Below are positions 9,270 through 33,515 of a stretch of 37,812 nucleotides of DNA, piece after piece. The notes beneath the pieces are model-generated. The model saw only the letters and a list, made by a program, of their open reading frames with translations, did not search any database and was not told where the DNA came from. Position 1 is the first letter of the stretch; each line of letters starts with the position of its first letter. The position numbers were made by a program, and so were the translations under genes. Location: the NCBI GenBank assembly GCA_001873745.1, contig MNZQ01000159.1, positions 1-37,812 of the forward strand, in the 5' to 3' direction. Source of the DNA: Syntrophaceae bacterium CG2_30_58_14. Its GTDB lineage: Bacteria; Desulfobacterota; Syntrophia; Syntrophales; UBA5619.

Positions 9270-10811
9270 TTATCGGCAATATCGATCCCTCAATACGCGA
9301 TGTAATATTTTCCCCGTTGGCGTTCGCGGCATTTCTTCGGCTTTGATAAAGAGTATCTGCTTGGGCCGCTTGAATGCGGCGAGTTTGTCCCGGCAATATT
9401 CGAGAAGCGTGTTTTCATCGACATCCGCCTTGGGGATAACCACCGCGACCACTTTTTCACCCCATTTCTCATCGGGCATGCCGATGACCGCAGTGTCGAA
9501 GACGGCAGGATGACTCCCAACAACCTCTTCGATTTCGCTTGGATAGGCATGCTCACCCCCGGTGATGATCATGTTGTCCTTCCGGTCCACGATCTGATAA
9601 TACCCGTCCTCATCCCTTCTGGCCAGATCCCCCGCCGAGAACCATTCTCCCCGAAAAGAGGAGGCGGTCTTTTCCGGCATTTTGTAATACCTGTCAAAAA
9701 GCATCGGCCCGCGTGAGTAGAGCTCCCCGACTTCTCCAATGGCGGCCTCGTTTCCTTCCGCGTTGATGATTTTCACAAAATCGGTGCCGACCGCTTCGTA
9801 TCCGATGGAACCGAGCTTTCTCATCTGATCTTCCGGTTTCAATATCGTGACAATGCCGGCCTCCGTAGATCCGTATGCCTCATACAGCTCGACGCCGGGG
9901 AAGAAATCCAGGATGGCAAGCTTCATGTTTTTGCGGACCGGGGCAGAGGAGCAGAGCAGCTTGCGGATGGAGCCGACATTTCGTTTCCGCGCCTCGGGAG
10001 GCGTGTTCAATATGAGGTTGTAATGGGTGGGGATCAGAGAGATGAAGGTGATCTTTTCCCTTTCGATGATCTCCAGGATCTCTTCGGCCTTGAACGACCG
10101 GGCCGGATGAATATAGGCTGTGCCGCCGATATAGAGGAACGTGAAGGTGTAAAAGGTTGAGTTGATATGGCACAGCGGCATGACATTGAGGCAAATGTCC
10201 TGGGGGGTGAATCCGGAGTCCACCGCATTCAGCAGATAGAAAGCAATGTGTGATTCGTGGGAACGGATGACCCCCTTGGGCTTTCCGGTGGTCCCGGAGG
10301 TGTAGATCAAAATCCACGGGTCCTTCGGGAGAACGTCAACTTCCGGTTCCTTGTCCGCCGAACCTTCGATCAACCGTTCATATTCAACGTAACCCTCTCT
10401 CTTCGGGCCGACCACGACATAGCCGTCTCCGGCAATGTTACCGAGCCCCGGCCGTATATCCTCGATCAGCGGGACGAATTCGTTGTCAATCATCAGCATC
10501 TTTGCGTCGGAATTGTTGACGATATATTCGATGTCTTTCCCCGCAAGCCGAAAGTTTATCGGCACGATGACGATGCCCGTTTTGGCTGTAGCCAGATAAA
10601 CCTCAATGATTTCAAGACAATTTTCGAGGAGGACGGCAACCTTGTCTCCCTTTTTCAGCCCCTTGGAAAGAAGGCTCGCTGCAAGCCGGTTTACACGTCC
10701 GTTTGTTTCCGGATAGGTGAAGCTTCTTTCCTTATCCTTGATGGCAGTCTTTGCGGGGAACTTCTTTGCGTTCACTTTCAGCATTTGACCGAGATTCATC
10801 CAGTAAGCCAT
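9270..10811 (-). CDS. AMP-forming acyl-CoA synthetase (FadD-like / aromatic or alicyclic acid-CoA ligase)
   Basis: From ATG at 10811 (GAGGTG RBS): ILIYTSGTTGKPKGV, YEAYGSTEAG, GEWFSAGDLARRDEDGYYQIVDRKDNMIITGGEHAYPSEIE, PRTPTGKILHRVLR. Confidence 0.93.
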   Translation of the reverse strand: MAYWMNLGQMLKVNAKKFPAKTAIKDKERSFTYPETNGRVNRLAASLLSKGLKKGDKVAVLLENCLEIIEVYLATAKTGIVIVPINFRLAGKDIEYIVNNSDAKMLMIDNEFVPLIEDIRPGLGNIAGDGYVVVGPKREGYVEYERLIEGSADKEPEVDVLPKDPWILIYTSGTTGKPKGVIRSHESHIAFYLLNAVDSGFTPQDICLNVMPLCHINSTFYTFTFLYIGGTAYIHPARSFKAEEILEIIEREKITFISLIPTHYNLILNTPPEARKRNVGSIRKLLCSSAPVRKNMKLAILDFFPGVELYEAYGSTEAGIVTILKPEDQMRKLGSIGYEAVGTDFVKIINAEGNEAAIGEVGELYSRGPMLFDRYYKMPEKTASSFRGEWFSAGDLARRDEDGYYQIVDRKDNMIITGGEHAYPSEIEEVVGSHPAVFDTAVIGMPDEKWGEKVVAVVIPKADVDENTLLEYCRDKLAAFKRPKQILFIKAEEMPRTPTGKILHRVLRDRYCR

Positions 10812-10812
10812 G

Positions 10813-11619
10813 TTACACCTCTTGTTTGATACATGCGGCCTTGCCTGCTTCAAGGGCGTAGAGTGCGGCGCCGATCGCGCCCGTCAATTGGGGATGGTCC
10901 GGAACGAGCAGCTTCCTTCCGATCCTCTCTTCGGCCATGGTGACGAGAAACGGATTGTGGGCCACAACGCCTCCCGTCATCACAATATTCTCCGTCAGGG
11001 AGTCCATTTCCAGAATCCTCTTGATGACGGAGAGAAAAAGGCCTTTGACGATGTCCGGAACTTTTTTCCCCTGGCGGATTTTTTCCAATACCTCCGTTGC
11101 CGAGAAGACGGTGCAGAAACTTCCCAGTTCGATCATATTCCGGGATTGCCTGGCCAGGCCGTCCATCTTTTCGAGGGGGATGTCTAAGCGGATGGACATT
11201 TCCTCGAGAAAGGCCCCTGTCCCGGCGGCGCATTTTCGATTCATTTTAAAACCGGTGCGACGGCCCTCACCGTCTAACTTGATAATTTTATTGTCCTGGC
11301 CTCCGATATCGATAATGCTTATTTCGAAAGGGAATTCGTGAAAACACCCCTTGCCGTGGCAACTGATTTCCGTCTTTTCAGCCGTGGCAAAGGAGACGTT
11401 TCTTCTTCCGTATCCGGTTGAAATGGAGGCGAATATCTCTTCCCTGGACGCGTTCGCCATCGCGAGTGAAACCGCCAGGCCGTTTTCCGCGGCGGCGCCG
11501 AAATCGTTCCCTGACTTGGAAACGGCATGCCCTATAAGCCTTTTTGCCGAATCGAGTACGGCAACCTTGGTTCTGGAGGCGCCGATGTCCACGCCGACAA
11601 ACACGGGTCGAGAATTCAT
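10813..11619 (-). CDS. BadF/BadG/BcrA/BcrD-type ATPase: activator of a 2-hydroxyacyl-CoA dehydratase/benzoyl-CoA reductase-like enzyme
   Basis: 268 aa; FVGVDIGASRTKVAVLD (phosphate 1), DIGGQDNKII, MNRKCAAGTGAFLEEMSIRLDIPLE ([4Fe-4S] cysteine), VMTGGVVAHNPFLV. Confidence 0.93.
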   Translation of the reverse strand: MNSRPVFVGVDIGASRTKVAVLDSAKRLIGHAVSKSGNDFGAAAENGLAVSLAMANASREEIFASISTGYGRRNVSFATAEKTEISCHGKGCFHEFPFEISIIDIGGQDNKIIKLDGEGRRTGFKMNRKCAAGTGAFLEEMSIRLDIPLEKMDGLARQSRNMIELGSFCTVFSATEVLEKIRQGKKVPDIVKGLFLSVIKRILEMDSLTENIVMTGGVVAHNPFLVTMAEERIGRKLLVPDHPQLTGAIGAALYALEAGKAACIKQEV

Positions 11620-11625: not shown

Positions 11626-12570
11626 CTATTTCGGTTCCAATGCCTTGACAAGGGCCCGCAGCGTCTTATTGTAAGGCGCTTCCACCCCGGCCTGCCGTCC
11701 ATATTCGACAATCTTGCCGTTCATGAAATCGATCTCCGTCCGGCGTCTGTTTTCGATGTCGATGAGCATGGAAGGTTTATGATCGCCGGCTTTTCTCATG
11801 TACTCGATGGCCTGGGGATAGTAGTTCCAGCCCAGCTCGATCTCGTTGGCCCTGGCAACGGCGATGCACTCTTTCAAGAGCGATTCGACAATCTGCAAGA
11901 CGATTGGATCGTTCATCGCCTGCGCCATGGTCAAGCCGGTCACCGCGCAAACGGGGTTCATCGAGGAATTGAGGATCGCTTTTCGCCAGACCATGGAATT
12001 GATGTTGTTTGTGTGGCTGGTGGGCAGCCCGCACGCGGTCAGGATTTTTGCGATCGCCTGCGCCTCGCCGGCGGAGGCCGGATCGAGCTCCTGCAATAAA
12101 TGGGGGGGATGGTGAAACGCCATATGGACGTGGCCCGGTTTTACCAGGCTGCAGCCCCAATTGACCACGGCTCGCATCACCGGTTTTGCGCCGAGGGTTT
12201 GCGCGATAACCGCTTCCGTGTCAATGCCGTTCTGCCAACTGATGACATAGAGCCCCTCTCTGTAAAAACCTTCGATGGCGGAAGAGATCAGCGGCAGGGC
12301 ATTGGCCTTGACGGTAAGGAAGATGACATCGGGACGATATTCCGCAAGATCGTCAACGCTGGTGCAGGTTCTTGTTACCGCTTGTTGGAGATTTTCAGCC
12401 CCTTCGATGATGATGCCGGGATTCAGGGCCGGCTTGAGCAATTCCGGGAAGACGTCGCACAGGGTCACCTCATACCCGCCTTTGGCGAGAAATGCGGCGA
12501 CAATACACCCGACCGGGCCGGCGCCCACAACCGCAAACGATCGCGGCCGAAAATCCGACTTATCTTCCAT
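11626..12570 (-). CDS. Ketopantoate reductase (ApbA/PanE) family oxidoreductase
   Basis: From ATG at 12570 with GGGGGTG RBS: FAVVGAGPVGCIVAAFLAKGGYEVTLCDV; conserved WRKAILNSSMNPVCAVTGLT. Confidence 0.85.
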   Translation of the reverse strand: MEDKSDFRPRSFAVVGAGPVGCIVAAFLAKGGYEVTLCDVFPELLKPALNPGIIIEGAENLQQAVTRTCTSVDDLAEYRPDVIFLTVKANALPLISSAIEGFYREGLYVISWQNGIDTEAVIAQTLGAKPVMRAVVNWGCSLVKPGHVHMAFHHPPHLLQELDPASAGEAQAIAKILTACGLPTSHTNNINSMVWRKAILNSSMNPVCAVTGLTMAQAMNDPIVLQIVESLLKECIAVARANEIELGWNYYPQAIEYMRKAGDHKPSMLIDIENRRRTEIDFMNGKIVEYGRQAGVEAPYNKTLRALVKALEPK

Positions 12571-12648
12571 AGTAGCACCCCCCTTTTTTTTTCCGTTGCG
12601 AGAACGGAAGTCAAGCATTTACATATGGCGCCGATCCCCAGTGGGTGA

Positions 12649-13365
12649 TCATTGTTTTCCCAGGTAGGCATGGCGCACTTTTTCGTCAGATAGGAGATCT
12701 GCGGTCGGGCCTTCGATCGCCACGGAGCCGGTTTCCAGGACATAGCCGTACCGGGCGATTTGCAACGCAGCCCGGGCGTTTTGCTCCACCAGAAGGATGG
12801 TGGTCCCCTGGTCATTCAATTTTTTAATGACCCGGAGGATTTCTGCAACGAGCATGGGGGCGAGGCCCATGGAGGGTTCATCCAGGAGGAGCAGCTTGGG
12901 CCGCGACATGAGGGCCCGCGCGATAGCCACCATTTGCTGTTCCCCGCCGCTCAGCGTGCCGGCCAGTTGCCTGGTTCTTATCTTGAGGAGCGGAAATATC
13001 TGGTATATCCACTCCAGCCGCTTCTGAATTTCAGCCTTGGTTCGGTTGCTGTAGTACAAATAGGCCCCCAGATGGAGATTGTCTATGACGGTCAAATGGG
13101 AAAAGAGCTGCCTGCCTTCCGGGACCTGGGAAATGCCCAAGGAGACGATCTTGACCGGCGGCAGGGAAGATATTTCCGTTCCTTCGTAGGTGATGGAACC
13201 GGTCTTCGACTGGATGAGGCCGGAAATCGATTTCAGCAGGGTTGTTTTACCCGCGCCGTTGGCGCCGATAATGGTTACCATGCTGCCGGGCGGAATGGTC
13301 AGGGAAACATTCTTCAACGCCTGGATATTTCCATAGGAGGCATTCACCCCTCTCAGTTCAAGCAT
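12649..13365 (-). CDS. livF: Branched-chain-type ABC transporter ATP-binding protein LivF
   Basis: Walker A GANGAGKTTLLKS, signature LSGGEQQMVAIARAL, Walker B LLLLDEPSMGLAP. Confidence 0.93.
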   Translation of the reverse strand: MLELRGVNASYGNIQALKNVSLTIPPGSMVTIIGANGAGKTTLLKSISGLIQSKTGSITYEGTEISSLPPVKIVSLGISQVPEGRQLFSHLTVIDNLHLGAYLYYSNRTKAEIQKRLEWIYQIFPLLKIRTRQLAGTLSGGEQQMVAIARALMSRPKLLLLDEPSMGLAPMLVAEILRVIKKLNDQGTTILLVEQNARAALQIARYGYVLETGSVAIEGPTADLLSDEKVRHAYLGKQ

Positions 13366-14141
13366 AATAAGGCTTCTCCTCCCAGATAGGCTTCGATGAC
13401 CTTCTGGTCATTCTGAATCTGCGCCGGCGGCCCCTCGGCGATCTTTTCCCCGTAATTGATTACAAGAATTTCGTCCGATACCTTCATAACGAGCGACATG
13501 TCATGCTCAACAAGGAGGATCGTAACGCCGCTGTCCCTGATGCTGTACAGCAGGTCCGCCATTTTTTGCGTCTCCACCTCGTTCAGGCCGGCGGCCGGTT
13601 CATCGAGAAGGATGAGCTTGGGGCCGGTGGCGAGGGCCCTGAGGACTTCCAGCGTCTTCTGTTCTCCCAACGGCAGGCTTCCGGCGGGAAGATCGGCCCT
13701 TCCCAGCAGGCTGCCCAATTTCAATATCTCGAAGGATTGATCCCGTATCCATTTTTCCTCTTTTCTCATGTGCGGAAGTCTGAACCCGGATGAAAACAGG
13801 CCGGCCCGTGATCGGGGATGGCAACCGACCATTACGTTTTCAAGAACCGTCATCTGGGAAAAAAGCTCGACCGTCTGGAACGTTCTTGAAATACCCAACC
13901 TGGCAATAACATGGGGTTTAAGGCCGTTGATGGGCTTTCCCTGGAAATGGATTTTGCCGGAGGAGGCGGGATGCACACCTGTGATCAGATTGAAGAGGGT
14001 CGTCTTGCCGGCCCCGTTGGGTCCGATGACGGACTTGATCTCCCCCTCCCGTACCTTGAAGGAAAGGTCGGAAATCGCCATCAGGCCGCCGAAGGCTTTA
14101 TGCAGGCACTCCGCATCGAGTATAAATGGATTGGTGGTCAT
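13353..14141 (-). CDS. livG: Branched-chain-type ABC transporter ATP-binding protein LivG
   Basis: GPNGAGKTTLFNLITG, LPLGEQKTLEVLRALATGPKLILLDEPAAGLN, LLVEHDMSLVM; overlaps livF. Confidence 0.93.
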   Translation of the reverse strand: MTTNPFILDAECLHKAFGGLMAISDLSFKVREGEIKSVIGPNGAGKTTLFNLITGVHPASSGKIHFQGKPINGLKPHVIARLGISRTFQTVELFSQMTVLENVMVGCHPRSRAGLFSSGFRLPHMRKEEKWIRDQSFEILKLGSLLGRADLPAGSLPLGEQKTLEVLRALATGPKLILLDEPAAGLNEVETQKMADLLYSIRDSGVTILLVEHDMSLVMKVSDEILVINYGEKIAEGPPAQIQNDQKVIEAYLGGEALLCLN

Positions 14142-15088
14142 GCCTCGCCTCGCTTGAAATATTTGCGGTAGAGCATCGGTATTCCCTCTAAAAATCCTTC
14201 CGGCATAAACAGAAGGATCGCCAGCAGGATGGCGCCGTAGATCAAGATATCGAACTCTTTGAATACCCTGAGGTATTCCGGCAGGAAAGTCATCAGCGAC
14301 GCCCCCATGACGGCGCCCCAGATGTTGTGGAGCCCGCCGACGACGCCCATCATGAGGAACATGATCGAGTTCATAAATGCAAAATTGTTTGGCGCGATGA
14401 AACTGACGAAGTGGGCATAAATGCTGCCGGCAATCGAGGCGTAAATGGCGGAGAGGACAAATATCTGGATCTTATAGGCCGACAGATTGATCCCCATCGC
14501 CCCAGCGGCCACTTCGCTGCCATGCATGGCCTTCAGCGCCCTTCCCACCCTGGAATGGATCAGATTCAGGGAAAACCAGAGGATGACCAACAATGCGCCC
14601 CAGACAAGATAATAATACTGGATGCTGTGGCTGAATGGATAACCGCCGACATGAAAGGCGGGGATGTTGGAGAGGCCGGAAGGACCGCCGGTCAGGCCTA
14701 CCATTTCATTGAAGATGATGTAGATGATCTCGCCGATTCCCAGGGTGGCGATTGCGAGATAGTGCCCCTGAAGCCGCAGCGCGGGGATGCCGATGATGAC
14801 GGCAACCAGCGAGGAGAAGAGGATGCCGCACAGAAATGCGGCGTAAATGGAAAGGCCGAACTGGGTGGTCAGGATACCCGTGGAATAGGCGCCGATGCCA
14901 AAGAAGGCGGCATGCCCCAGGGATATCTGGCCGGCATAACCCATCAGCAGACTCAAGCCGACAACGACCATGCAGTTGATTCCCATGAAGACCAGGATGC
15001 TCAGGTGGTAATCCCCGCTGACGATCAGCGGGACCACCGCAATGATGGCAGCCATTACCAGGAGCTTGAGGTAATTGTTCTTTCCCAT
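14138..15088 (-). CDS. livM: ABC transporter permease LivM
   Basis: Hydrophobic 316 aa; GLSLLMGYAGQISLGHAAFFGIGAYSTGIL, GLTGGPSGLSNIP, GVVGGLHNIWGAVMGA. Confidence 0.93.
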   Translation of the reverse strand: MGKNNYLKLLVMAAIIAVVPLIVSGDYHLSILVFMGINCMVVVGLSLLMGYAGQISLGHAAFFGIGAYSTGILTTQFGLSIYAAFLCGILFSSLVAVIIGIPALRLQGHYLAIATLGIGEIIYIIFNEMVGLTGGPSGLSNIPAFHVGGYPFSHSIQYYYLVWGALLVILWFSLNLIHSRVGRALKAMHGSEVAAGAMGINLSAYKIQIFVLSAIYASIAGSIYAHFVSFIAPNNFAFMNSIMFLMMGVVGGLHNIWGAVMGASLMTFLPEYLRVFKEFDILIYGAILLAILLFMPEGFLEGIPMLYRKYFKRGEA

Positions 15089-15097
15089 ACAATATCC

Positions 15098-15994
15098 CTA
15101 TATTTTTTTAATTTTTCCGACTTCAGCGCTGCCGAAGATGCCGCTCGGCTTGATGAACAGAACAAGGATCAGGATGATGAGGGCGGTCGCTTCCTTGAAT
15201 GCCGATGAAATGAATCCCGTCGTAAATGATTCGATCAACCCCAAGAGAAAGCCGGCAACGACCGCCCCGGTGCCAAAGCCCAGCCCGCCCAGGACCGCAG
15301 CGCAAAACCCCTTTAACGCGAGCATGGGCCCCCGGTCATATTCCATCAGCGCAATCGGGGTAATCGATGCCCCCGCCAGGGCGCCCAGTGTGGCGCTCAG
15401 GGCGAACGAGAGCAGCACCATTTTGGAGACGTCAATCCCCACCAAAGAGGCCGCCACACGATTGACCGCGCAGGCGCTCATGGCCTTTCCCGTAATGGTC
15501 CGGTTGAAGAAGATGTTCATCAGGATGACCGCCAGGAGTGACAGGCCCAGGATCCAGAATACCTGGGGAAGGATCGCCGCTCCGCCAATAATGATGGGTT
15601 CCGGGGAAGAAAAATGGGGGAGGCTGTACGGCTCTTTCCCCCAGATAAACATCGCGATGCCGCGGAAGAAAATGGAGACCGCCACCGTGATGATCAGCAG
15701 GGTCATCAGCGGGGCTGTTTTCGACGGGTGATGGATGAAGAGTCGCTCATAGAGCATGCCGATGCCGGTGGTCAGCGCCAGCGTGATGAAGAATGACAAG
15801 AACAGCGGAAGGCCGAGCGTGGTTGTGAAAAAAACCATGATCAGGCCGCCAAACATCACAAACTCGCCCTGCGCCAGATTGATGATGCCCGTGGCATTGT
15901 AGATGATCGTGAAACCCAGGCCCACCATGGCGTAAATGCTGCCCAGGGTGAGCCCCGTTGCCAGATATTGAATGATTTGACCCTGCAGATCCAT
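15098..15994 (-). CDS. livH: ABC transporter permease LivH
   Basis: From ATG at 15994: MDLQGQIIQYLATGLTLGSIYAMVGLGFTIIYNATGIINLAQGEFVMFG; AAVLGGLGFGTGAVVAGFLLGLIES. Confidence 0.93.
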   Translation of the reverse strand: MDLQGQIIQYLATGLTLGSIYAMVGLGFTIIYNATGIINLAQGEFVMFGGLIMVFFTTTLGLPLFLSFFITLALTTGIGMLYERLFIHHPSKTAPLMTLLIITVAVSIFFRGIAMFIWGKEPYSLPHFSSPEPIIIGGAAILPQVFWILGLSLLAVILMNIFFNRTITGKAMSACAVNRVAASLVGIDVSKMVLLSFALSATLGALAGASITPIALMEYDRGPMLALKGFCAAVLGGLGFGTGAVVAGFLLGLIESFTTGFISSAFKEATALIILILVLFIKPSGIFGSAEVGKIKKI

Positions 15995-16027
15995 CTGGTC
16001 TTCCCCGTATGCGTTGGTTATGCAGCA

Positions 16028-16068
16028 GTCAGCGGTTGGCAGTGATCCACCGACTGCCAACCGCTGAC
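16028..16068 (-). promoter_or_regulatory. Perfect 16-bp stem-loop between the substrate-binding protein and livH
   Basis: GTCAGCGGTTGGCAGT-gatccaccg-ACTGCCAACCGCTGAC; arms 16028..16043 and 16053..16068; no T-tract on either side. Confidence 0.75.
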
Positions 16069-16091
16069 GGAACGGAATGTCGCAAACAAGT

Positions 16092-17300
16092 CTATTTGGC
16101 GAAAGCCCAGTCGCCCTTTACGACCTGGATCATCTCGAATGCGGAAAGGTCCAGCCCGGTATGGTCGGTAGCAGACATGTTGAATACACCGCCCGTACCC
16201 GGCCAATTCTTGATATCGTTTTCCAGGAAGTCCCTGACCTTCGTCCTGTCCGGGCCTACGGCCTTGATCGAGTCGATCGCCAGGTAGAGCCCGTCATAGC
16301 CATGGCCGCCAAAGGTTGAAACATCGGACTTGGTTCGCTTTTCGTATTCCGTGGCATAACGGGAGAGGACTTTATACTGGGGATGGATCTTGGGGAGTTT
16401 TTCCCATCCGATAAGACGGCCCAGCGGAGCAATGACCCCTTCGGCGGAACCGCCTGCCAGTTCGATATTCTTTTTGTTGCCGAAGCCGTGACTCTGATAA
16501 AGCGGCATCCCCATGGCCAGGGACTTCCAGTTTTTCGTAACAATCACCTGTGTGGGGCCGATTGACCAGTTAATCACAGCCTGAGCGCCGCTGGTCCTGA
16601 TTTTTGTCAACTGTGCCGTCATGTCGGCATCCTTCGGTCCATACACCTCGTCGGCTACGAGGTTGATGTTGTATTTCGGCGCCATCCGCTTCAGCTCGTT
16701 TCGTCCGGCACTCCCAAAGCCGTCGCTGACCGTGACAATGCCCACCTTGGTGATGCCCTTCTTCTTCATATGGGCGTAAATGGCTTCCACCGCGGAGGTA
16801 TCCGTTTGCGGGGTCTTGAATATCCAGGGACGCTGAACGCGGGGCGATTCAATGGTCCCGGCGATTCGCTTGTATTCATCGGCCGGCGTCACGATCTGCA
16901 GGGCGGCCGCCATCGAGATCATCGGGATTTTGGCGGCTTCGCAGATCGAGGCCATGGCCATCGATTCGCCGGAAGTGGAGGAGCCGATGATCGCGACCAC
17001 CTTGTCCCCATCAATCAGTTTCTTTGTCGCGAGAACGGCTTGGCTCGCATCGCTTTTGGAATCTTCGATGATGATTTGTACCGGAACGCCCTTGATCCCC
17101 CCCTCCTTGTTGATCCACTCCTGAACCATGAGGGCCGTGTCCTTCTCCGGTTGTCCGAGCCAGGAGGCGCCGCCGGTGATGGAGGCTACGAAGCCGATCT
17201 TGATCGGCCCCTGAGCCATGGCCGGACCCGTTAAGGAAAGACAGAAAAACAGGGTAAACGCGGTGATCAGACTGATTTTGCTTAATTTTTTGTGATTCAT
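16092..17300 (-). CDS. ABC transporter substrate-binding protein (LivJ/periplasmic amino-acid or aromatic-acid type)
   Basis: 402 aa with signal peptide (MNHKKLSKISLITAFTLFFCLSLTGPAMAQ) and PIKIGFVASITGGASWLGQPEKDT. Confidence 0.92.
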   Translation of the reverse strand: MNHKKLSKISLITAFTLFFCLSLTGPAMAQGPIKIGFVASITGGASWLGQPEKDTALMVQEWINKEGGIKGVPVQIIIEDSKSDASQAVLATKKLIDGDKVVAIIGSSTSGESMAMASICEAAKIPMISMAAALQIVTPADEYKRIAGTIESPRVQRPWIFKTPQTDTSAVEAIYAHMKKKGITKVGIVTVSDGFGSAGRNELKRMAPKYNINLVADEVYGPKDADMTAQLTKIRTSGAQAVINWSIGPTQVIVTKNWKSLAMGMPLYQSHGFGNKKNIELAGGSAEGVIAPLGRLIGWEKLPKIHPQYKVLSRYATEYEKRTKSDVSTFGGHGYDGLYLAIDSIKAVGPDRTKVRDFLENDIKNWPGTGGVFNMSATDHTGLDLSAFEMIQVVKGDWAFAK

Positions 17301-17454: not shown

Positions 17455-18645
17455 CTAACAAACCTTGATGACCAGCGCGGCCCCGGTATCCCCTGCCGCG
17501 CAGCCGGCCCACAGCAGATATCCCCCTCCCAACTTCACCGTCTCTTCAATGCCTTCCATGATGTTGCGCGCGGCGGTGGGGGCCTGGGGGTGTCCATAAA
17601 CGATCGTGCTGCCGTAATTGTTCATCGCGTTTACATCCAGTCCCAGCTCCTTGGCCAGATAGAGGTCGTTTGCGGCAAACGGGTTGTGGGTTTTCACCGT
17701 TTTCACCTGGTCTGCGGCGATCCCGGCCCGATCGAGCGCCATCCGGGCTGCGGGGGCGGTTGCCATCGCCATAAAGCCTTTTTTGGCCCGGCCGTACCCA
17801 TAGGAGAGGATCTGAATCTCCACCTCCGGATCGGCGCTCAACTCTGTTGCCTTTTCCCTGGTTGTGACGATGACGGCGGCGTTGCCGTCCGCCGGATGGG
17901 TCTGCGAACCAAAGGTATGGACCCCCTCCGGGATAACGGGTTTCAGGCCGGCCAGTCCCGCGGCGGTCGTTTCCATGACGCCCTCGTCCTTTTCAACCCG
18001 TAAGGTCTTGTTCTTGCCGGCCTTCACCTCAACCGGAAAGAGGTAACCCCGTTGAAAGGCCCGGTCGTCGGCAAGGGCATCCAGGTATTGTTCATAACGC
18101 CTCAGGCTCAACCGGTCGCACTCTTCCCGCGTGATGCCCGCCTCCCTGGCCACATTTTCCGCGGTCTGGATCATGGGGCCTTTGGCCCAGGGGTCCCGAG
18201 AGAAATTGTCCATCAGCCAATTTTCCGAGATGACCTGACCGCCCGGTCCCTGGGGATTAGGCCAGACGGTATGGGGGCCGTTGGAACAGCGATCCGTCAT
18301 CAGGGCATAGACATTCTGGTAAAGGCCCGTTTCCACACCGACACCGGCCTGAAAAATGCAGGTTGCCGAAGTGTTGCAGGCTTGGCTGATGAGCATACCC
18401 GGGATCGAGGCGGCGCCGATCATGGCCGCGGCCCAGGGACTTCCGTAAAACCATTGCGGCTGGCCGATGGTCATCCCCAGGATGAGATAGTCAAACATGC
18501 CCGCATCCCATTTCCTTTCCATCAGGAACCGTTTCGAGGTTTCGGCAGCCAGAACAATGGCATGCTCATTGGCCATCGCCCCCTGCCATCGTGAGAAAGG
18601 GGTGCTGTAATAACCGCGATAGGGGATGAACGCCTTGGTCAACAT
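17455..18645 (-). CDS. Thiolase (acetyl-CoA acyltransferase family)
   Basis: 396 aa; ISQACNTSATCIFQAG (nucleophilic Cys region), KTHNPFAANDLYLA, YGSTIVYGHPQAPTAARN, GCAAGDTGAALVIKV. Confidence 0.9.
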   Translation of the reverse strand: MLTKAFIPYRGYYSTPFSRWQGAMANEHAIVLAAETSKRFLMERKWDAGMFDYLILGMTIGQPQWFYGSPWAAAMIGAASIPGMLISQACNTSATCIFQAGVGVETGLYQNVYALMTDRCSNGPHTVWPNPQGPGGQVISENWLMDNFSRDPWAKGPMIQTAENVAREAGITREECDRLSLRRYEQYLDALADDRAFQRGYLFPVEVKAGKNKTLRVEKDEGVMETTAAGLAGLKPVIPEGVHTFGSQTHPADGNAAVIVTTREKATELSADPEVEIQILSYGYGRAKKGFMAMATAPAARMALDRAGIAADQVKTVKTHNPFAANDLYLAKELGLDVNAMNNYGSTIVYGHPQAPTAARNIMEGIEETVKLGGGYLLWAGCAAGDTGAALVIKVC

Positions 18646-18715: not shown

Positions 18716-19972
18716 TCAGGCCGCCTCTTCAAGCTGTTCCATAAAAGCCTCGATATTGGTCTTGGCCTGCTCTTCGGAGTAACATCGCAAATCGTTCAGA
18801 TCGCCGTTGATGGTCAATGTGGGGATGCCCAACCGCTTCATCAGCCGTTCCGGCATGCCGTAACGGTTGTTTGAATTGTTGGGACAGGTTTTGGCGTCAT
18901 GAAAGAGGATGCCGTCGAATTGATAGAAATCGCGACAACGGCTGATGTACTGTTCCTTGTACGCTTCATCCCGGACGATATACAGTTCCGTGTAAGCCCG
19001 GGCCATGCTTGCGAAAGGGTCTGCCGGATCGAGCTTTTCGAAAATCCAACTGTTGCAATAGGTGGAGGCCACCACGGATGCGTTCAGTGCGCCGAATTGC
19101 TCCGCGAGAGGCCTCAGTTTTCCCCAGATGGGCATGCCTTCCCAGTATAACCGGTGCTTTTCACCCGGTACCGTGGCGATGCCGGCGGCGGCCCGCTCCC
19201 GGAGTTCCTCCAGAAGCGTTTTATAATATCCGACGCTTTCCCGGGTCCCGCGGGCGACCACGGCAGGGCCCATGTGGATCGTCGCATCGAAGAATGTCCA
19301 CGGCGCGGGGAAGGAGGCGTTCATTTCCAGGCAGGCCTTCCACAGCAGGGACGTATCCCGCGACAGGGAAACCGCCTCCTCGAGGCGATCCCGGCGCAAT
19401 TTCTCTCCCGTCACCTCCTCTAATGCGGGAACCATCTCCTCGATCTGCCTGGCGATGTCGCCGATCTGATATTCCCGGATTTCACCAAGCTCACGATGGG
19501 TATGGATACCCAATAAAGGCGCCTGGAATTCACGGGCATACCAGGCAAACCAGTCTTTCACATCCCGGCATTGGTTGGTGTTGAATACGAGCACATCCGG
19601 CCTCGGCACGGAAGCAATCTGGTAGGCTGCCGTCAGGGGCGTCTTTTTTCGCAGAAAAGAGCCGATGTCCGAAGTCAGATAGGAGCAGATATCGGGTGAA
19701 TAACCGATCGCGTTGGCGTGGGGGATCGAATCGGCGGCCATCCGGGAAGCGCCCAGCATGGCTGCGTGATTCTCAGGGAAATAGACCAGAAAACCCATGC
19801 CCCGAAGCAGCTCGGCAGGTCCCACGCTGGTGCACCAGGCAATCTTTCGGGCGCCGGTGATGGAAGCATCGGCCAGCTCATGAAAATGGCCCGCCATAAG
19901 CTGCTTCAATTTCGCCGTTGAGCGAAAATCCCTCTGCGGTCTCTCTTTTTCCCCGGGCATATTTCCCATCAA
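18716..19972 (-). CDS. 2-hydroxyacyl-CoA dehydratase / benzoyl-CoA reductase (BcrB/HgdB-like) single subunit
   Basis: 418 aa; KIAWCTSVGPAELLRGMGF, VFNTNQCRDVKDWFAWYAREFQAPLLGI, ILFHDAKTCPNNSNNRYGMPERLMKRLGIPTLTINGDLNDLRCYSEEQAKTNIEAFMEQL. Confidence 0.9.
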   Translation of the reverse strand: MMGNMPGEKERPQRDFRSTAKLKQLMAGHFHELADASITGARKIAWCTSVGPAELLRGMGFLVYFPENHAAMLGASRMAADSIPHANAIGYSPDICSYLTSDIGSFLRKKTPLTAAYQIASVPRPDVLVFNTNQCRDVKDWFAWYAREFQAPLLGIHTHRELGEIREYQIGDIARQIEEMVPALEEVTGEKLRRDRLEEAVSLSRDTSLLWKACLEMNASFPAPWTFFDATIHMGPAVVARGTRESVGYYKTLLEELRERAAAGIATVPGEKHRLYWEGMPIWGKLRPLAEQFGALNASVVASTYCNSWIFEKLDPADPFASMARAYTELYIVRDEAYKEQYISRCRDFYQFDGILFHDAKTCPNNSNNRYGMPERLMKRLGIPTLTINGDLNDLRCYSEEQAKTNIEAFMEQLEEAA

Positions 19973-20013: not shown

Positions 20014-20127
20014 GTAAAAAGTCCGAAAACCCCATATACTGTCATTCCCGCGAAAGCGGGAATCCAGTGAATTCGAGCCGTTCTGGACTCCTGCTTTCGC
20101 AGGAGTGACGGTTTTGGGACTTTTTAC
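20014..20127. repeat. ~114-bp palindromic MITE/REP-like element
   Basis: Ends GTAAAAAGTCC(G)AAAACC ... GGTTTTGGGACTTTTTAC; interior GTCATTCCCGCGAAAGCGGGAATCCAG ... CTGGACTCCTGCTTTCGCAGGAGTGAC. Confidence 0.85.
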
Positions 20128-20174: not shown

Positions 20175-20768
20175 CTATCCCGGGCCGGCGTCCCTGCCCG
20201 CGAGAAAGGCCTTCTGGTTCATCTCCACGAATCGCGCCGGGACCAGTTGCTTGATCACCTTCAGCCAAATCTCCCGGCCGCCGCCCACCAGGTTGGACAG
20301 GGCGCCTAACAAGACCACACCCGCCATGGCCGGATTGCCCGCATCCTTGGCCAAGTCGTCGGCGCTCAGCCATTTGACCTTACCGCCTCTCGATTGCAGC
20401 AGATTCTCGATCTCTTTTTCTGAGGGGTACCGCGCTTTCCCCAGAGTGACAAGGAGCGGCGGAATACGAAAACGGTTGATGAACGTTACCGAGTTATTGT
20501 TCAGATAGGTGAGCCAGCGGGCGGCCTCGACCATTTCAAAACCGATGAGGTAATCCGCCATGCCATGTTCCACCAGCGGGGAATGGACCTTTTTCCCCCA
20601 GCGTACATGGCTCTCCACGCTGCCGCCGCGTTGCGCCATGCCGTGAACCTCGGCGGTCTTGACATCATAACCCAGTTCCAGGCCGGTGTGCGCCAGGATT
20701 CTGCTCGCCAGAATGGTTCCTTGGCCGCCAACCCCGGCCAGCAAATAGTCTATCTTTTTCACGGTCAC
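20175..20768 (-). CDS. iorB: Indolepyruvate:ferredoxin oxidoreductase beta subunit
   Basis: 197 aa; YLLAGVGGQGTILASRILAHTGLELGYDVKTAEVHGMAQRGGSVESHVRWG. Confidence 0.93.
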   Translation of the reverse strand: MTVKKIDYLLAGVGGQGTILASRILAHTGLELGYDVKTAEVHGMAQRGGSVESHVRWGKKVHSPLVEHGMADYLIGFEMVEAARWLTYLNNNSVTFINRFRIPPLLVTLGKARYPSEKEIENLLQSRGGKVKWLSADDLAKDAGNPAMAGVVLLGALSNLVGGGREIWLKVIKQLVPARFVEMNQKAFLAGRDAGPG

Positions 20769-20783: not shown

Positions 20784-22544
20784 TTAATTTTCTTCCTGAC
20801 TGATTGCATCGGAGGGGCAGACCTGCACACAGAGGCCGCAGCCGGTGCACAGCGCTTCGTTAATGCTCACGCAATCCTCCTGCTGAATGAGGGGTGGGCA
20901 GCCAATATCGAGACATGTCCCGCAATTCAGGCAAAGTTCCGGATCGATCCGGGGAGGCGTCCTTCTTTCCCTGGACTGTAGAGCGCAAGGCCGCCGCGCA
21001 ATGATCACCGAGGCCTCGTCGCTTTTCAAGTGGTCTTCCAGTATTTTCCTGAAATCATCCCTCTTATTGGGATCGCATACGTCAACCTTGTTAAAGCCAA
21101 TGCCGCGGATCATTCTCTCCAAGTCAACCTTCACCGTCGGTTGCTTCTGCAGGGTATATCCGGTTCCCGGATGATGTTGATGCCCCGTCATGCTGGTGGT
21201 GCCGTTGTCCGCGATGATCGTCGTTGTTTTCCCCTGGTTGTAAAGGGTGTTGATCAATGGATGGAGGCCGGAGTGGAAGAGCGTGGAATCGCCAATGACC
21301 GCCACAAGACGATCCGGAATGCCCCCCTTGTCCATCCCGTGGGCTACGCCGATGCTCGCGCCCATGCAACCGCAGAAATGGAGCGCCTCGAGCGGCGAGG
21401 CCGCCCCCAGCGTGTAACAACCGATGTCGCCCATCACCACCACGCCGGCCTCCTTCAGGACGGTAAACATGCCGCGGTGGCCGCAGCCGGGGCAAAGGAT
21501 GGGGGGCCGGACAGGGATAGGGATATCCGATGCCGGCGCAGCGGAGAATCCGGAAACCGCCGCCGGAAGAATGCCGGCCTTGATGGCGGCCTGGCGGATC
21601 AGTGAGGGGCTGAATTCGCCAACGATCGGGAAAACGTCCTTGCCGGAAACCGGAATGCCCAACAGGCGGAACTGCTCTTCAAAGAAAGGATCCAGCTCTT
21701 CAATGACCAGGATTTTTTTCACCCGGCCGGCAAACTCCCGTATCCGTTTCTCCGGCAGCGGGTAAACCATGCCCAGACGGAGAAAAGTCGCCTCGGGGAA
21801 CACCTCCCGTGCATATTGATAGACCGCGCCGGAGGCCACGATTCCCCAATCGTCATTCCCCGGTTCGATCCGGTTCAGCGGGGTGGTCTCGGCGTATTCC
21901 CGCAACTTTCCAATCCGTTCCTCCACCACCGGATGACGACGTCGGGCATTTCCCGGCACCATCACAAATTTCCCGATTTCCCGCTTGTATGGTTTGTTTT
22001 CCTTCACGGGAGGAGGAACTGCGGCAGGATCGACATCCACCACCGAAGAAGAATGGGAGGTGCGGGTCACGAAGCGGACGATGACCGGTGTGTCGAAGGT
22101 CTCACTCATTTCCAGGGCCGTGGCGGCGAATTGTTTGGCCTCTTCGCTGTCGGAGGGCTCCAGCATGGGCGCACGGGCGAATTTTGCGTAGTTCCGGTTG
22201 TCCTGTTCATTCTGGGAACTGTGCATGCCCGGATCGTCGGCGCAGGCAATCAAAAGTCCCGCGTTCAAGCCGGTATAAACGGCATAGAAGAGCGAATCGG
22301 CTGCCACATTGAGCCCCACATGTTTCATGGAAACCAGGGCCCTCGTTCCCGCGAAGGCCGCCCCGATGCCTACATCCAGGGCCACCTTTTCATTCGGCGC
22401 CCATTCGGCGTGCACCCCGGGGAAAGACGCAAATTTTTCCATGATCTGCGTGCCGGGCGTTCCCGGGTAGCCCGCCCCCACCCGCACGCCGCTGAGATAG
22501 GCGCCGTAGGCCAGCGCTTCATTTCCTGTCATCAGTTCTTTCAA
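20784..22544 (-). CDS. iorA: Indolepyruvate:ferredoxin oxidoreductase alpha subunit
   Basis: 586 aa; MTGNEALAYGAYLSGVRVGAGYPGTPGTQIME, CPGCGHRGMF, TPP motif GDSTLFHSGLHPLINTLYNQGKTTTIIADN, C-terminal 2x[4Fe-4S] ferredoxin (CLNCGTCLDIGCP, CTGCGLCVQVCP). Confidence 0.95.
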   Translation of the reverse strand: MKELMTGNEALAYGAYLSGVRVGAGYPGTPGTQIMEKFASFPGVHAEWAPNEKVALDVGIGAAFAGTRALVSMKHVGLNVAADSLFYAVYTGLNAGLLIACADDPGMHSSQNEQDNRNYAKFARAPMLEPSDSEEAKQFAATALEMSETFDTPVIVRFVTRTSHSSSVVDVDPAAVPPPVKENKPYKREIGKFVMVPGNARRRHPVVEERIGKLREYAETTPLNRIEPGNDDWGIVASGAVYQYAREVFPEATFLRLGMVYPLPEKRIREFAGRVKKILVIEELDPFFEEQFRLLGIPVSGKDVFPIVGEFSPSLIRQAAIKAGILPAAVSGFSAAPASDIPIPVRPPILCPGCGHRGMFTVLKEAGVVVMGDIGCYTLGAASPLEALHFCGCMGASIGVAHGMDKGGIPDRLVAVIGDSTLFHSGLHPLINTLYNQGKTTTIIADNGTTSMTGHQHHPGTGYTLQKQPTVKVDLERMIRGIGFNKVDVCDPNKRDDFRKILEDHLKSDEASVIIARRPCALQSRERRTPPRIDPELCLNCGTCLDIGCPPLIQQEDCVSINEALCTGCGLCVQVCPSDAISQEEN

Positions 22545-22620: not shown

Positions 22621-23691
22621 TCAGGGAATCAGGATGGGTCGCAACGATGTTTTTCTCTGGTGGACCAGCTCGAACACCTCATTGATCTCGCTCAGGGGGT
22701 AGGCCTTTACGAAAGGGGCTATTCGGACGCTTCCCGCAAGGGCGAGTTTCAGCACGGCCGGGTAATGTTCAGGCACGCAACCCCAGTTCCCCCGCGCCAT
22801 GGCATGAAAGGCCATCAGGTTGGAGAGTCTGATCTCCACCGTGTCCATCGTAAAACCGACCACCTGAAGCGACGCCCCATAGGTAAGAAGCCCGAAGGCC
22901 GTTTTCTGACCTGCCGCCGTGCCGGAGGTTTCAAATATCTTCCATTCTGTCGGGCGTTTATTCCGGCTCTTGATAAAAGCGGATACGGCCTTTTTTAACT
23001 CCTTTGCCGGCAGCTCCAAGGCGTTGAATGTGATATCCACATAAGGGGCGATTGCCGTGAGTTTGTCCGGGTCAATATCCACCGCTACGACCAAAGCCCC
23101 GAGAGCGTGGGCGATCTGCGCCCCGAAGCCGCCGACGCCGCCGATACCGATGAAAATGGCGGTATCTTCCCTGGAGAGGCCCGATCCGACGATGGACTGG
23201 TAAGGGGTCGTTATCGCATCAGCCAGGACGGAGAGCTCCGCCAGTGTAACGCCGGGGGTGGAAATCGGCCGGTATTGATCATCCACGGGAACCGCGCAGA
23301 GACTTCCGGCGGGTACGACAATGTGGCTGGCAAACCCCCCGGGAATGTCGTTGCCGGGCATTTTCTGCACCGGACAGATATTGCCCTTGCCGCGTCGGCA
23401 CACATCACATTGGCCGCATGGCATGACCGCCGGCACGATGACCGCCTTCTTTTCCCACTGCTCGGCGCCGGCGCCGGCAGCCTCGACGATGCCGCTGATT
23501 TCGTGGCCCAGCGTGAGAGGAAGGGGCGTTTTGGTGCGGACGCCGTTATAATAAAAACCGAGGTCGGTATGGCAGACGCCGCAGCCGGCCACCTTGAGCC
23601 GTACCTCTCCAGGGCCGGGAACAGGAAGGGGCGAGACCACTTTCTCGATCGGTTTCCCAGACGCTGTCATTTTCCATGAGATCATTTCCAT
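22621..23691 (-). CDS. bamQ: 6-hydroxycyclohex-1-ene-1-carbonyl-CoA dehydrogenase (zinc alcohol dehydrogenase family)
   Basis: From ATG at 23691 with AAAGGAG RBS; GCGVCHTDLGFYYNGVRTKTPLPLTLGHEISGIV, PCGQCDVCRRGKGNIC, GIGGVGGFGAQIAHALGA; neighbours bamR and bamA. Confidence 0.88.
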   Translation of the reverse strand: MEMISWKMTASGKPIEKVVSPLPVPGPGEVRLKVAGCGVCHTDLGFYYNGVRTKTPLPLTLGHEISGIVEAAGAGAEQWEKKAVIVPAVMPCGQCDVCRRGKGNICPVQKMPGNDIPGGFASHIVVPAGSLCAVPVDDQYRPISTPGVTLAELSVLADAITTPYQSIVGSGLSREDTAIFIGIGGVGGFGAQIAHALGALVVAVDIDPDKLTAIAPYVDITFNALELPAKELKKAVSAFIKSRNKRPTEWKIFETSGTAAGQKTAFGLLTYGASLQVVGFTMDTVEIRLSNLMAFHAMARGNWGCVPEHYPAVLKLALAGSVRIAPFVKAYPLSEINEVFELVHQRKTSLRPILIP

Positions 23692-23704
23692 CGGTTCATC
23701 TCCT

Positions 23705-25744
23705 TTATAGACCCTTATATTCGGGCTTCTTTCGACCCAGCGAAGAGAGGCCTTCCAGCGCATCTGCGGTGGCAAAGATCTCCCCCAGGCGGTCAAGCTC
23801 GATCTCGATCCCCTCGTCCGGAGAGACTTTCGCCTGCCGGTCAATGATCTGGTTGACCAGTTTCAAGGCTAATGGCGCCTTCTTGCCTATGGTTTTCAAA
23901 ATTTTCGACGCAACCGCTTCATCCGCGCCCGGCGGGATTTTCCCTTTCAGAAGGGCTGCCGTGTTTTCTGCATTAAACAGGGTTCGCCAGAGGGCAAATC
24001 TTTCGGGAATCGGCCGCGAACGATACTTGTCCGGCCTGCCTTCCCGAATCAGGTTCCGGATCGCCTCATCCACGGCGGAGGGCTCGACAAGGCGGGTGAC
24101 AATCCCGAGCTCTTGCGCATCGGAGGCGGTCATTGTAGCGCCGGTGAAGATGAAATACTTGGCAAGTTCCGGCCTTAAGAGGCGGCCCAGCCGCAACATG
24201 CCGCCGAGCCCCGGGTAGATCCCGATGCCCGTTTCCGGGAACGAGAGAGAGCCTGCCGGCGTGGCCACAATGGCTTGGCAGGCCAGGGCAAGTTCGCTTC
24301 CGCCGCCCATGGAAAGGCCGTCTAAAAGTGCGATGGTCAGCTTGTTGGAATCTTCAATCCGTCTGAAAAGCTGATGGCCCTTCCGGGTAAAATCCACGAT
24401 GTCGGCAATTTTCCCGGCCTTTATCTTTTCAACAAAGTAGCGTATATCCGCCCCGGCCACGAAGGCCTTTCCAGCGCCCTGAAAAATAATGGCCGACACG
24501 CCGGGACTCTGCTCCGCTTCAGAGAACCGTTCGGTCAACTGCTCCACCACAGTTTCATTCAATGCGTTCATCGCCTCCGGGCGATTGATGGTAATGGTGG
24601 CCATGTCCTTATCGATGGCCAGGTTGACCAGCATAAAGGCAAAGGGTCGGCCCGACTGACGTTGCCTTGTCAGGAGCCCCGGCATTCGGAAGTCGGGATA
24701 TTTTTCGGCCACTTTCTCGACCAGGGCGAAGGTTTTTTCAATGCCCAACCGGTTCATGATCTCAAATGGCCCAAGCGCCCATCGCAGGCCGATTTTCGCT
24801 CCCCGGTCGGTATCCTCCATCGTGGTCACCCCTTCATCGACCAGGGCGGCGGCGACACCGAGACAGACGCCGTAAAGGCGATCCATCACGGCGGCGATCT
24901 TCTCTTCCTGCACTTCGCCGGAAAGATCCCAGTTGGCCTTTTTCTCCATTTGCGACTTCATGATCCCGGCGGTCGCGTAAAAGGGGCCCAGTTCATGGCC
25001 CAGGGTGGCCGAGGCATGGACCGCGATCGGGATGCCGGTCACATTCATCAGTTCAAAAGGCCCCATGCCGATCCGGAAAGCCCGCTTCGCCCCCTCCTCG
25101 ATGGTGGGGATGTCGGCCAGCCCTTCCTCCAACATCCGGGCCGCCTCGTTCAGGAAAGGGACAAAGAAACGATTGACCGCAAAACCAGGCGCGTCCTTCA
25201 CCAGGATGGGGGTCTTTCCATGCAACTTGGCCACCAGCAGCGCGCGGTCGATGGTTTGCGATGATGTTTTTCCGTGGGGGATAACCTCTAACAGGCGGTT
25301 TTTGGCGGGATGATAAAAATAATGGAGCCCGATGACCCGGTCCGGCCTCGAGGTTGCCTCGGCAAATTCGCGGACATAGAAACTCGAGGTATTGGTGGCC
25401 AGGATGGTTTTTTGCATGCAGACGCGATCCAGCCGTTTAAAGACTTCGGTCTTGACAGCCTTGTCCTCAAAGACCGCTTCGATCACCAGATCGGCGTCCG
25501 CCAACGCCTGAAAGTCCGTGGTTCCGGTGATGCGGGACAGGATGCGGCCGATCTCGTCCGGGGAAAAGATCTTCCTTTCCGCCGCTTCCCGGAGCAGCCG
25601 TTGGATATTGTCCATCCCCCGCTTGACCCATTCATCCCCGGTATCCACCATGACGACAGTGAGGCCTTCCTGGGCGATCTTCTGAGCGATGCCACTGCCC
25701 ATATTGCCGGCGCCCACAACACCAATCTTGCTGATTATACTCAT
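23705..25744 (-). CDS. Bifunctional 3-hydroxyacyl-CoA dehydrogenase (N-term) / enoyl-CoA hydratase (C-term)
   Basis: 679 aa; IGVVGAGNMGSGIAQKIAQEG, GLHYFYHPAKNRLLEVI, DAPGFAVNRFFVPFLNEA; then TITINRPEAMNALNE, AGADIRYFV, LDGLSMGGGSELALACQ, FPETGIGIYPGLGG. Confidence 0.93.
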   Translation of the reverse strand: MSIISKIGVVGAGNMGSGIAQKIAQEGLTVVMVDTGDEWVKRGMDNIQRLLREAAERKIFSPDEIGRILSRITGTTDFQALADADLVIEAVFEDKAVKTEVFKRLDRVCMQKTILATNTSSFYVREFAEATSRPDRVIGLHYFYHPAKNRLLEVIPHGKTSSQTIDRALLVAKLHGKTPILVKDAPGFAVNRFFVPFLNEAARMLEEGLADIPTIEEGAKRAFRIGMGPFELMNVTGIPIAVHASATLGHELGPFYATAGIMKSQMEKKANWDLSGEVQEEKIAAVMDRLYGVCLGVAAALVDEGVTTMEDTDRGAKIGLRWALGPFEIMNRLGIEKTFALVEKVAEKYPDFRMPGLLTRQRQSGRPFAFMLVNLAIDKDMATITINRPEAMNALNETVVEQLTERFSEAEQSPGVSAIIFQGAGKAFVAGADIRYFVEKIKAGKIADIVDFTRKGHQLFRRIEDSNKLTIALLDGLSMGGGSELALACQAIVATPAGSLSFPETGIGIYPGLGGMLRLGRLLRPELAKYFIFTGATMTASDAQELGIVTRLVEPSAVDEAIRNLIREGRPDKYRSRPIPERFALWRTLFNAENTAALLKGKIPPGADEAVASKILKTIGKKAPLALKLVNQIIDRQAKVSPDEGIEIELDRLGEIFATADALEGLSSLGRKKPEYKGL

Positions 25745-25905: not shown

Positions 25906-26679
25906 TCATCGGTTTTTCCAGTCCGGTTTGCGTTTTTCACAGAAGCTGTTGATCCCTTCCAGCGTATCCTCTGTTTTCATGAGTCTGTTCAGAAACAGGT
26001 CCGTTACCCCCGCCAGGGCCTGCGGAAAGGCCATGCCGAGATGCGTTTTCACGGCGAGCTTGTTGAGCCGGATAATGAGTGGGCTGCTCAGAAGCAGGCT
26101 GCCTGCGACGCTCTCCACGGCCTCGCCAAACTTTTCCTCTCCGGCTACCTGGCTGATCAGACCCATGCCCTTCGCCTCGTCGGCGGAATATATCCTGCCT
26201 GTGATGCAAATCTCGATTGCCCTGGCGGGTCCTACAAGCTGAGGAAGGCGTATGGCTGCGTAGGGAGGGAAAAATCCAAGGCGTATTTCCGGCTGGCCAA
26301 AAGTGGCTTTCGATGAGGCCACGATGATATCGCAGGCAATGGCCAGTTCCATGCCGCCTCCCAGGCAGGGGCCGTGCACCGCGGCGATCAGCGGCACATC
26401 CAGTTTTCCCATGGTTTCAAAGATGCCGTTGAAGGCGCCGATCATCTCCGCCACCATCTCGGGACGATGCTCTCCCACATCAACGCCGGCACACCAGCTT
26501 GGCCCCTCGCCGGAGAGGACCACGCACTTCAGGCCTGCATCCATTGCGAGGGATGAAAGGGCCGCATTCAGCTCCTTCATCATTTCGATGTTGAGCACAT
26601 TGTGCTTGGGACGGGCCAGCGTAATCCGCGCCAGACCGTTTGCATGGTCGGTCTTGATGTGCTGAAAAGACATGTTCAT
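25906..26679 (-). CDS. bamR: Cyclohexa-1,5-diene-1-carbonyl-CoA hydratase (crotonase family)
   Basis: 257 aa; ARPKHNVLNIEMMKELNAAL, WCAGVDVGEHRPEMVAEMI, GPCLGGGMELAIACDIIVAS, FGQPEIRLGFFPPYAA; directly downstream of bamA. Confidence 0.88.
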   Translation of the reverse strand: MNMSFQHIKTDHANGLARITLARPKHNVLNIEMMKELNAALSSLAMDAGLKCVVLSGEGPSWCAGVDVGEHRPEMVAEMIGAFNGIFETMGKLDVPLIAAVHGPCLGGGMELAIACDIIVASSKATFGQPEIRLGFFPPYAAIRLPQLVGPARAIEICITGRIYSADEAKGMGLISQVAGEEKFGEAVESVAGSLLLSSPLIIRLNKLAVKTHLGMAFPQALAGVTDLFLNRLMKTEDTLEGINSFCEKRKPDWKNR

Positions 26680-33482: not shown

Positions 33483-33515
33483 AACGGTAAGGCAAAAGGC
33501 GAGGATAAGAAAATA

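Follow-up and report, generated by a model that had tools for sequence, protein, structure and literature searches.

The window analyzed here is a 37,812-nucleotide stretch of DNA that constitutes an entire contig (G000:C140); the genome measures 3.04 Mb and is 96.7% complete. Positions 18716-19972 of its minus strand hold a genuine open reading frame, which encodes 418 amino acids if translation starts at a TTG codon. An AGGAAG ribosome-binding site precedes an ATG at position 19969, which is likely the start and yields a 417-residue protein. Residue numbers below follow the 418-residue version; numbering from the ATG is lower by one. The product belongs to PF06050, scoring 204 bits (E 6e-60) against a gathering score of 28.4. 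The profile match, an AlphaFold model searched with Foldseek, a phylogenetic tree, and the ribosome-binding site with its ATG together define it as a lone-subunit HGD-D protein of the alpha type, similar to HadB and BcrB, which is referred to below as the lone HGD. The 37.8-kb contig has no second PF06050 match, in agreement with the original prediction of a single HgdB/BcrB-type subunit of 418 residues lacking a partner in the window.

The surrounding genes are on the minus strand unless stated otherwise. Adjoining the lone HGD is a thiolase (17455..18645; PF00108/PF02803), copies of which beside lone HGD genes elsewhere are mostly 57-74% identical. Beyond it lie a livFGMHK ABC transporter recognized from its open reading frames (12649..17300), a PanE-family reductase that is a candidate (R)-2-hydroxyacid dehydrogenase (11626..12618; TIGR00745, 204 bits, over the cut-off), an acyl-CoA dehydratase activase (10813..11619), and an AMP-forming acyl-CoA ligase (9270..10853; PF00501, 278 bits) with copies of 45-71% identity beside lone HGD genes elsewhere. 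On the other side are iorB-like and iorA-like genes for the putative beta (20175..20768; best NCBIfam match indolepyruvate oxidoreductase beta, 221 bits) and alpha (20784..22544; TIGR03336, 646 bits, just under the cut-off of 650.9) subunits of an arylpyruvate:ferredoxin oxidoreductase. These are followed by had, for 6-hydroxycyclohex-1-ene-1-carbonyl-CoA dehydrogenase (22621..23844; TIGR03201, 465 bits, over the cut-off), a fused 3-hydroxyacyl-CoA dehydrogenase/enoyl-CoA hydratase (23705..25744; PF02737, PF00725, PF00378), a dienoyl-CoA hydratase-like crotonase in the dch slot (25906..26679; PF00378, 182 bits; TIGR03189, 166 bits, below the cut-off), and a gene matching TIGR03200 (26676..27815; 563 bits, over the cut-off). 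The bamB, bamC, and bamD-like genes of a class II benzoyl-CoA reductase lie on the plus strand (30983..34667; AFOR Pfam match, Fer4 and CCG) and close homologs with as much as 87% identity occur across Desulfobacterota. In other class II loci, more bam genes follow. The set in the window had been called complete-looking, a description that goes too far: it holds BamB, BamC, and a BamD-like protein, and three open reading frames tested in the approximately 3 kb past bamD (34668-37812), beyond 34.9 kb, match no Pfam family. Minor features of the window include a SerA-like D-2-hydroxyacid dehydrogenase gene (7729-8628, minus strand) that seems to be internally deleted, with about 60 residues matching the NAD-binding domain model, and is probably decaying. 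A 64-nt direct repeat, 97% identical between its copies (3684-3747 and 5827-5890), flanks a second aldehyde-ferredoxin-oxidoreductase-family gene (3755-5599).

The order oah, dch, HAD/ECH, had, iorA, iorB, HGD, thiolase is kept in G004, G016, and G018, with one exception: in place of had, G018 has, before oah, an alcohol dehydrogenase with only 42% identity to it. These three genomes and G019, all of the same GTDB family, encode orthologs 91-93% identical to the lone HGD, and close orthologs are found in MAGs labelled Syntrophales, Syntrophus, and Deltaproteobacteria. Three other loci (L101, L103, and L134) carry a cassette of PanE, activase, HGD, (ADP-forming ligase,) ligase, and thiolase, whose members resemble those of the window (PanE about 70%, HGD 62-65%, ligase 66-71%, and thiolase about 70% identical where covered). 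The window PanE is 68-70% identical to its counterparts in these cassettes and in L089. All five cassette genes are present in the window, where the liv transporter parts PanE, activase, and ligase from thiolase and HGD. This transporter splits the cassette in the window's lineage; it adjoins the thiolase in G016, and none was found adjoining the thiolase in G018 or G004. Ligase, thiolase, and IorAB are recurrent neighbors of the lone HGD.

The window activase retains the cysteines of the KCAAGTG and SFCTVF motifs and scores 198 bits with TIGR00241, over the cut-off. Among the best 80 of 452 relatives of the lone HGD, 67 loci have an activase within 3 kb. The activases that adjoin lone HGDs group together at 100/100 on a long branch, separate from those of HadBC-like, Bzd, YjiL, and DCCP systems, and the window activase falls inside this clade, with 73% identity to its counterpart in L061. 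The suggestion that the gene at 10813-11619 serves the lone subunit is thus upheld, and there is strong evidence for a lone-subunit architecture with a dedicated activase. A single ATP-dependent activase is what two-component dehydratases have, and a single subunit with its own activase is the arrangement of DCCP and YjiM. Class I reductases, by contrast, combine a beta subunit bearing a six-Cys [8Fe-9S] site with paired activase genes, neither of which accompanies the lone HGD; one activase gene is found with it, versus two in the bzdNO locus of G026.

The 452 relatives came from one scan of genome contigs and span at least 8 phyla. The best 80 of them are 59-93% identical to the window protein and come from records named Desulfobacteraceae, Desulfomonile, Chloroflexi, Aminicenantes, Zixibacteria, Planctomycetota, Spirochaetia, Bacteroidetes, and Elusimicrobia. 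Plasmid records gave distant relatives only, which served as references. A beta-type HGD lies near the lone gene in just 1 of these 80 loci (L069), where it is part of a distinct system on the opposite strand that includes an alpha subunit and an activase of its own. Family members almost always lack the second (beta) PF06050 subunit of a two-component dehydratase. In two closed chromosomes (G024, CP070825.1; G027, CP070727.1) and in three genomes of 99, 95, and 100% completeness (G138, G156, and G258), the lone HGD is the only PF06050 protein, so sharing of a beta subunit with another enzyme is not a general explanation.

One might still imagine, for the source genome, a conventional heterodimer with its beta-subunit gene at another location, because that genome contains a HadB-like/HadC-like pair on C84 whose alpha member is 38% identical to the lone HGD. 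Such an arrangement is very unlikely. A search of the full genome for an orphan partner, as the original prediction had proposed, returned four further PF06050 genes, which form two adjacent pairs, on C84 (its HadC-like gene broken by assembly Ns) and C26 (one member fused to an activase), leaving no spare beta subunit. Borrowing from C84 or C26 was rejected, since each of these genes belongs to a pair of its own and since the lone HGD stands as the sole PF06050 protein in the five near-complete genomes. The canonical partner that would have overturned the prediction was by and large not found in these genomes. The lone HGD is a member of a partnerless family and not a two-subunit enzyme that lost its partner here. 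Literature searches yielded no paper describing this family, only a one-line mention of a 'singular' FldB-like gene, and the branch is widespread and apparently undescribed. Two side observations concern the pairs. The C26 fusion places a PF06050 subunit and its own activase in a single 696-aa open reading frame (locus L049, 3-3075) adjoining another PF06050 subunit that is cut by the contig edge. A REP/MITE-like inverted repeat (20040-20113) occupies the 200-bp gap between iorB and the lone HGD in the window, and a similar repeat seems to be present beside the C84 pair.

The AlphaFold model of the lone HGD has a mean pLDDT of 89.8, and Foldseek places HadB (3o3m_A) first with a TMt of 0.92, followed by MbdO and BzdO (BcrB-type) at about 0.83; DCCP (about 0.76) and beta subunits (0.72-0.79) rank lower. 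HadB is also the top curated NCBI model, although its 198 bits fall far below the cut-off of 750. The BcrB (130.5 bits versus 486.55) and BzdO (80.3 versus 448.6) models likewise do not assign the protein to the class I benzoyl-CoA reductases. In a 61-row maximum-likelihood tree, the alpha group splits from beta subunits and DCCP/YjiM at 100/100, and the lone family forms its own 100/100 clade within the alpha group. Its sister in the best tree is MbdO of 3-methylbenzoyl-CoA reductase (86/82); approximately unbiased (AU) tests reject neither HadB (p-AU 0.449) nor the C84 alpha subunit (p-AU 0.497) as sister instead. Sequence, predicted structure, and phylogeny agree that the lone HGD is a catalytic alpha-type subunit of the clade of HadB, BzdO, and MbdO, and it does not sit firmly within any known two-subunit dehydratase clade.

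The original prediction had also entertained a double-cubane reductase. As a protein of the DCCP/YjiM kind, it would reduce a small molecule. This reading draws on the shared single-subunit organization with an own activase (DCCP with DCCP-R, YjiM with YjiL) and on cysteines at or near five of the six double-cubane positions, but the remaining evidence makes it extremely unlikely. Placing the lone HGD within the DCCP/YjiM clade costs 136 log units and is rejected (p-AU 4e-105), the fold is alpha-type, the double-cubane model NF040772 gives 56 bits versus a cut-off of 350, and the gene is surrounded by CoA-ester metabolism. The sixth ligand position (Cys293 of BzdN; NCAC/GCSC) holds no cysteine in the alignment, so the full set of six is lacking.

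Across the window protein and 78 long relatives, five cysteines are invariant (79/79): Cys47, Cys96, Cys135, Cys306, and Cys363. Cys397 is present in 71 of the 78 relatives. In BzdO, the cluster is ligated by Cys95, Cys128, and Cys380, and Tyr97 and Tyr298 form hydrogen bonds to the thioester; the [8Fe-9S] cluster of BzdN is held by Cys36, Cys73, Cys100, Cys263, Cys293, and Cys327 (PMC11971306). By alignment to the former ligand list, Cys96 (DICSYL; codon 19685..19687, minus strand), Cys135 (NQCRDV; 19568..19570, minus strand), and Cys363 (KTCPNN; 18884..18886, minus strand) are the putative [4Fe-4S] ligands, corresponding to BzdO Cys95, Cys128, and Cys380, respectively. With Ser49 and Glu67, they complete the three-Cys site and Ser/Glu pair of an alpha subunit. 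Trp46, Tyr98, and Tyr305 are also kept, and the two tyrosines align with BzdO Tyr97 and Tyr298. Of three cysteine contexts singled out previously, all motifs are present, and two belong to the actual ligand set; WCTSVGP (Cys47) had been misjudged as a cluster cysteine, and TYCNSW (Cys306) had been missed.

The two additional invariant cysteines set this family apart. Cys47 (codon 19832..19834, minus strand), at the end of strand 1, falls near the double-cubane ligand Cys36 of BzdN with a register uncertain by one residue, and it also occurs in MbdO and one Proteus alpha subunit. Cys306 (codon 19055..19057, minus strand) aligns with the 'EETC' cysteine of DCCP, a double-cubane ligand column, and none of the two-subunit alpha proteins compared has a cysteine there. 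From its spacing, it would correspond to BzdN Cys263, and because the neighboring Tyr305 matches thioester-bonding Tyr298 of BzdO, Cys306 should lie next to the substrate. Cys47 and Cys306 might bind metal. Together with Cys397 or a non-Cys ligand, they might form a second, distal iron-sulfur unit that replaces the beta-subunit cluster, giving a homodimeric, alpha-only aryl-CoA reductase/dehydratase that keeps the CoA-ester site and unites both halves in one polypeptide. Such a third BCR/HAD architecture is a speculative and unlikely proposal.

The distribution of the lone HGD was compared with that of ring-cleavage genes in 395 Desulfobacterota genomes. Of the 62 that encode a lone HGD, Oah occurs in 51 (Fisher p about 3e-25) and BamB in 55 (about 9e-30); neither p value is corrected for relatedness. 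ATP-driven chemistry beside a class II set had been deemed unexpected; the BamB count shows that it is not unusual. The lone HGD is found in 48 of 86 Oah genomes with BamB or BzdO and in 3 of 15 with neither. These counts indicate that it accompanies benzoyl-CoA reductase and does not replace it. They weigh against an ATP-dependent aryl-CoA reductase, a simplified class I ('class III') enzyme for benzoyl-CoA or a substituted benzoyl-CoA, as do the single activase gene, the missing sixth double-cubane ligand, the lack of a beta subunit with an [8Fe-9S] electron store, and a genome (G028) with a lone HGD and no Oah. This reading nevertheless has points in its favor, and we regard it as doubtful rather than remote. 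The lone HGD is tightly linked to Oah/Dch/Had, MbdO is its sister in the best tree, and Cys47 is common to both. Furthermore, four genomes (G023, G024, G025, and G032) have Oah (fragments in G025) with no BamB-level or class I reductase recognized among the matches, which makes a reductase role possible. Separately, the 15 of 101 Oah genomes without a BamB or BzdO homolog at the thresholds used (for example, G117, G176, G185, G200, G248, G270, and G278) may contain an unrecognized benzoyl-CoA reductase or assembly gaps.

Several lines of evidence favor a dehydratase over a reductase. HadB is the best curated model, the residues Trp46, Ser49, Glu67, Tyr98, and Tyr305 are kept, a single activase gene is present, compared with two in the G026 BzdNO locus, and the double-cubane ligands are incomplete. 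At least one kind of 2-hydroxyacid dehydrogenase occurs in 24 of 37 well-flanked lone-HGD loci. Four unrelated families are involved: an FAD-linked oxidase with CCG domains (L081), PanE (the window, L089, L101, and L130), a D-2-hydroxyacid dehydrogenase (L082), and an Ldh_2-like protein whose best match is sulfolactate dehydrogenase (L161). No such gene was found in the other 13 well-flanked loci, including two of the window's own lineage (L055 and L056), and the FAD oxidase with its CCG protein might transfer electrons instead of oxidizing a hydroxyacid. An aromatic substrate is suggested by the Oah and BamB frequencies and by a Mo enzyme in Aminicenantes, adjoining the cassette in G024 and oah in G025, whose large subunit best matches 4-hydroxybenzoyl-CoA reductase. 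Dehydration of a non-aromatic 2-hydroxyacyl-CoA, perhaps one derived from branched-chain amino acids, with the aromatic link reflecting shared habitat or beta-oxidation, would fit the LIV-type transporters in the window and L082 and the Oah-free G028. It is rather improbable given that the lone HGD keeps its operon with dch and oah in Syntrophales and given the strength of the association with Oah and BamB (Fisher p about 1e-25 to 1e-29 over 395 genomes, uncorrected for phylogeny).

We therefore favor, with a probability of roughly 0.5, a self-sufficient, probably homodimeric, ATP-activated alpha-only enzyme that acts as an (R)-2-hydroxyacyl-CoA dehydratase, probably on aryllactyl-CoA, and feeds cinnamoyl-CoA and thiolase steps toward benzoyl-CoA. 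An ATP-primed dehydratase reaction is likely. Radical acyl-CoA dehydratases are oxygen-sensitive and normally have two different halves, of which the lone HGD corresponds to the one that binds the substrate. In known dehydratases the electron passes through the beta subunit, which counts against an alpha-only enzyme. In the proposed mechanism, an activase dimer carrying one [4Fe-4S] cluster would take an electron from ferredoxin and, at the expense of ATP, transfer it to the lone subunit's catalytic [4Fe-4S] cluster (Cys96/135/363). From there, the electron would reduce the (R)-2-hydroxyacyl-CoA thioester to a ketyl radical, from which hydroxide would leave; upon loss of a proton, the enoyl-CoA would be released and the electron presumably recycled. 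The PanE-type reductase and the ligase would together supply the most likely substrate, an (R)-aryllactyl-CoA (phenyllactyl- or 4-hydroxyphenyllactyl-CoA). The resulting cinnamoyl-CoA-type compound could be chain-shortened to (hydroxy)benzoyl-CoA in hydratase, dehydrogenase, and thiolase steps and would then enter the Bam/Dch/Had/Oah pathway, with IorAB serving a parallel 2-oxoacid branch. The simplest route using all these genes would run from arylpyruvate via (R)-aryllactate, aryllactyl-CoA, cinnamoyl-type CoA, and (hydroxy)benzoyl-CoA to ring cleavage.

To our knowledge, all characterized CoA-ester dehydratases and reductases of the radical family have two different catalytic subunits, and we know of no physiological substrate for the one-subunit members DCCP and YjiM. 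The best solved relative is HadB of HadBC, (R)-2-hydroxyisocaproyl-CoA dehydratase (PDB 3o3m; about 28% identity), which has the same three cluster cysteines, the same Trp, Ser, and Glu positions, and one activase type. HadB, however, needs HadC; members of the lone family do without a beta subunit and have Cys47 and Cys306 as extra invariant cysteines. The class I catalytic subunits BcrB, BzdO, and MbdO (PDB 8s02 and 9g87) are similarly alpha-type, with the same [4Fe-4S] ligand set and thioester-holding Tyr, but a beta subunit accompanies them (with [8Fe-9S] in the case of BzdN), as do two activase genes where these were observed. DCCP and YjiM share the aligned Cys306 and differ in their separate clade and complete ligand set. 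FldB/FldC is phenyllactyl-CoA dehydratase, and the Fld enzymes comprise FldB and FldC with a CoA transferase. They share activase dependence and the proposed conversion of (R)-aryllactyl-CoA to cinnamoyl-CoA, but the lone system uses a ligase and only a single subunit. The 'singular' gene BzS1_13720 of a sulfate reducer that degrades benzene is 30% identical to FldB; its protein was not detected, and a phenyllactyl-CoA to benzoyl-CoA route was also proposed for this organism (PMC13416013). As described there, this gene is FldB-like, partnerless, and from an anaerobic aromatic degrader with the same proposed route.

If the favored reading is true, this widespread alpha-type branch, with one subunit and its own activase, would show that a beta subunit is not essential, and the lone HGD would offer a simpler enzyme for mechanistic work. 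It would also mark an entry into benzoyl-CoA metabolism that has gone unrecognized in many uncultured anaerobes, probably for aryllactates and thus for aromatic amino acids. Two lone-HGD genes per genome occur in G023 (L101 and L147) and in G029, suggesting subfamilies with different substrates. Finally, a lone HGD of 56% identity lies at a contig edge in G002 (C39, locus L046, 2-7117); after it come GlcD-like and CCG Fe-S proteins encoded by separate genes, a ligase of 45% identity, an SDR, and a PanE-like gene.
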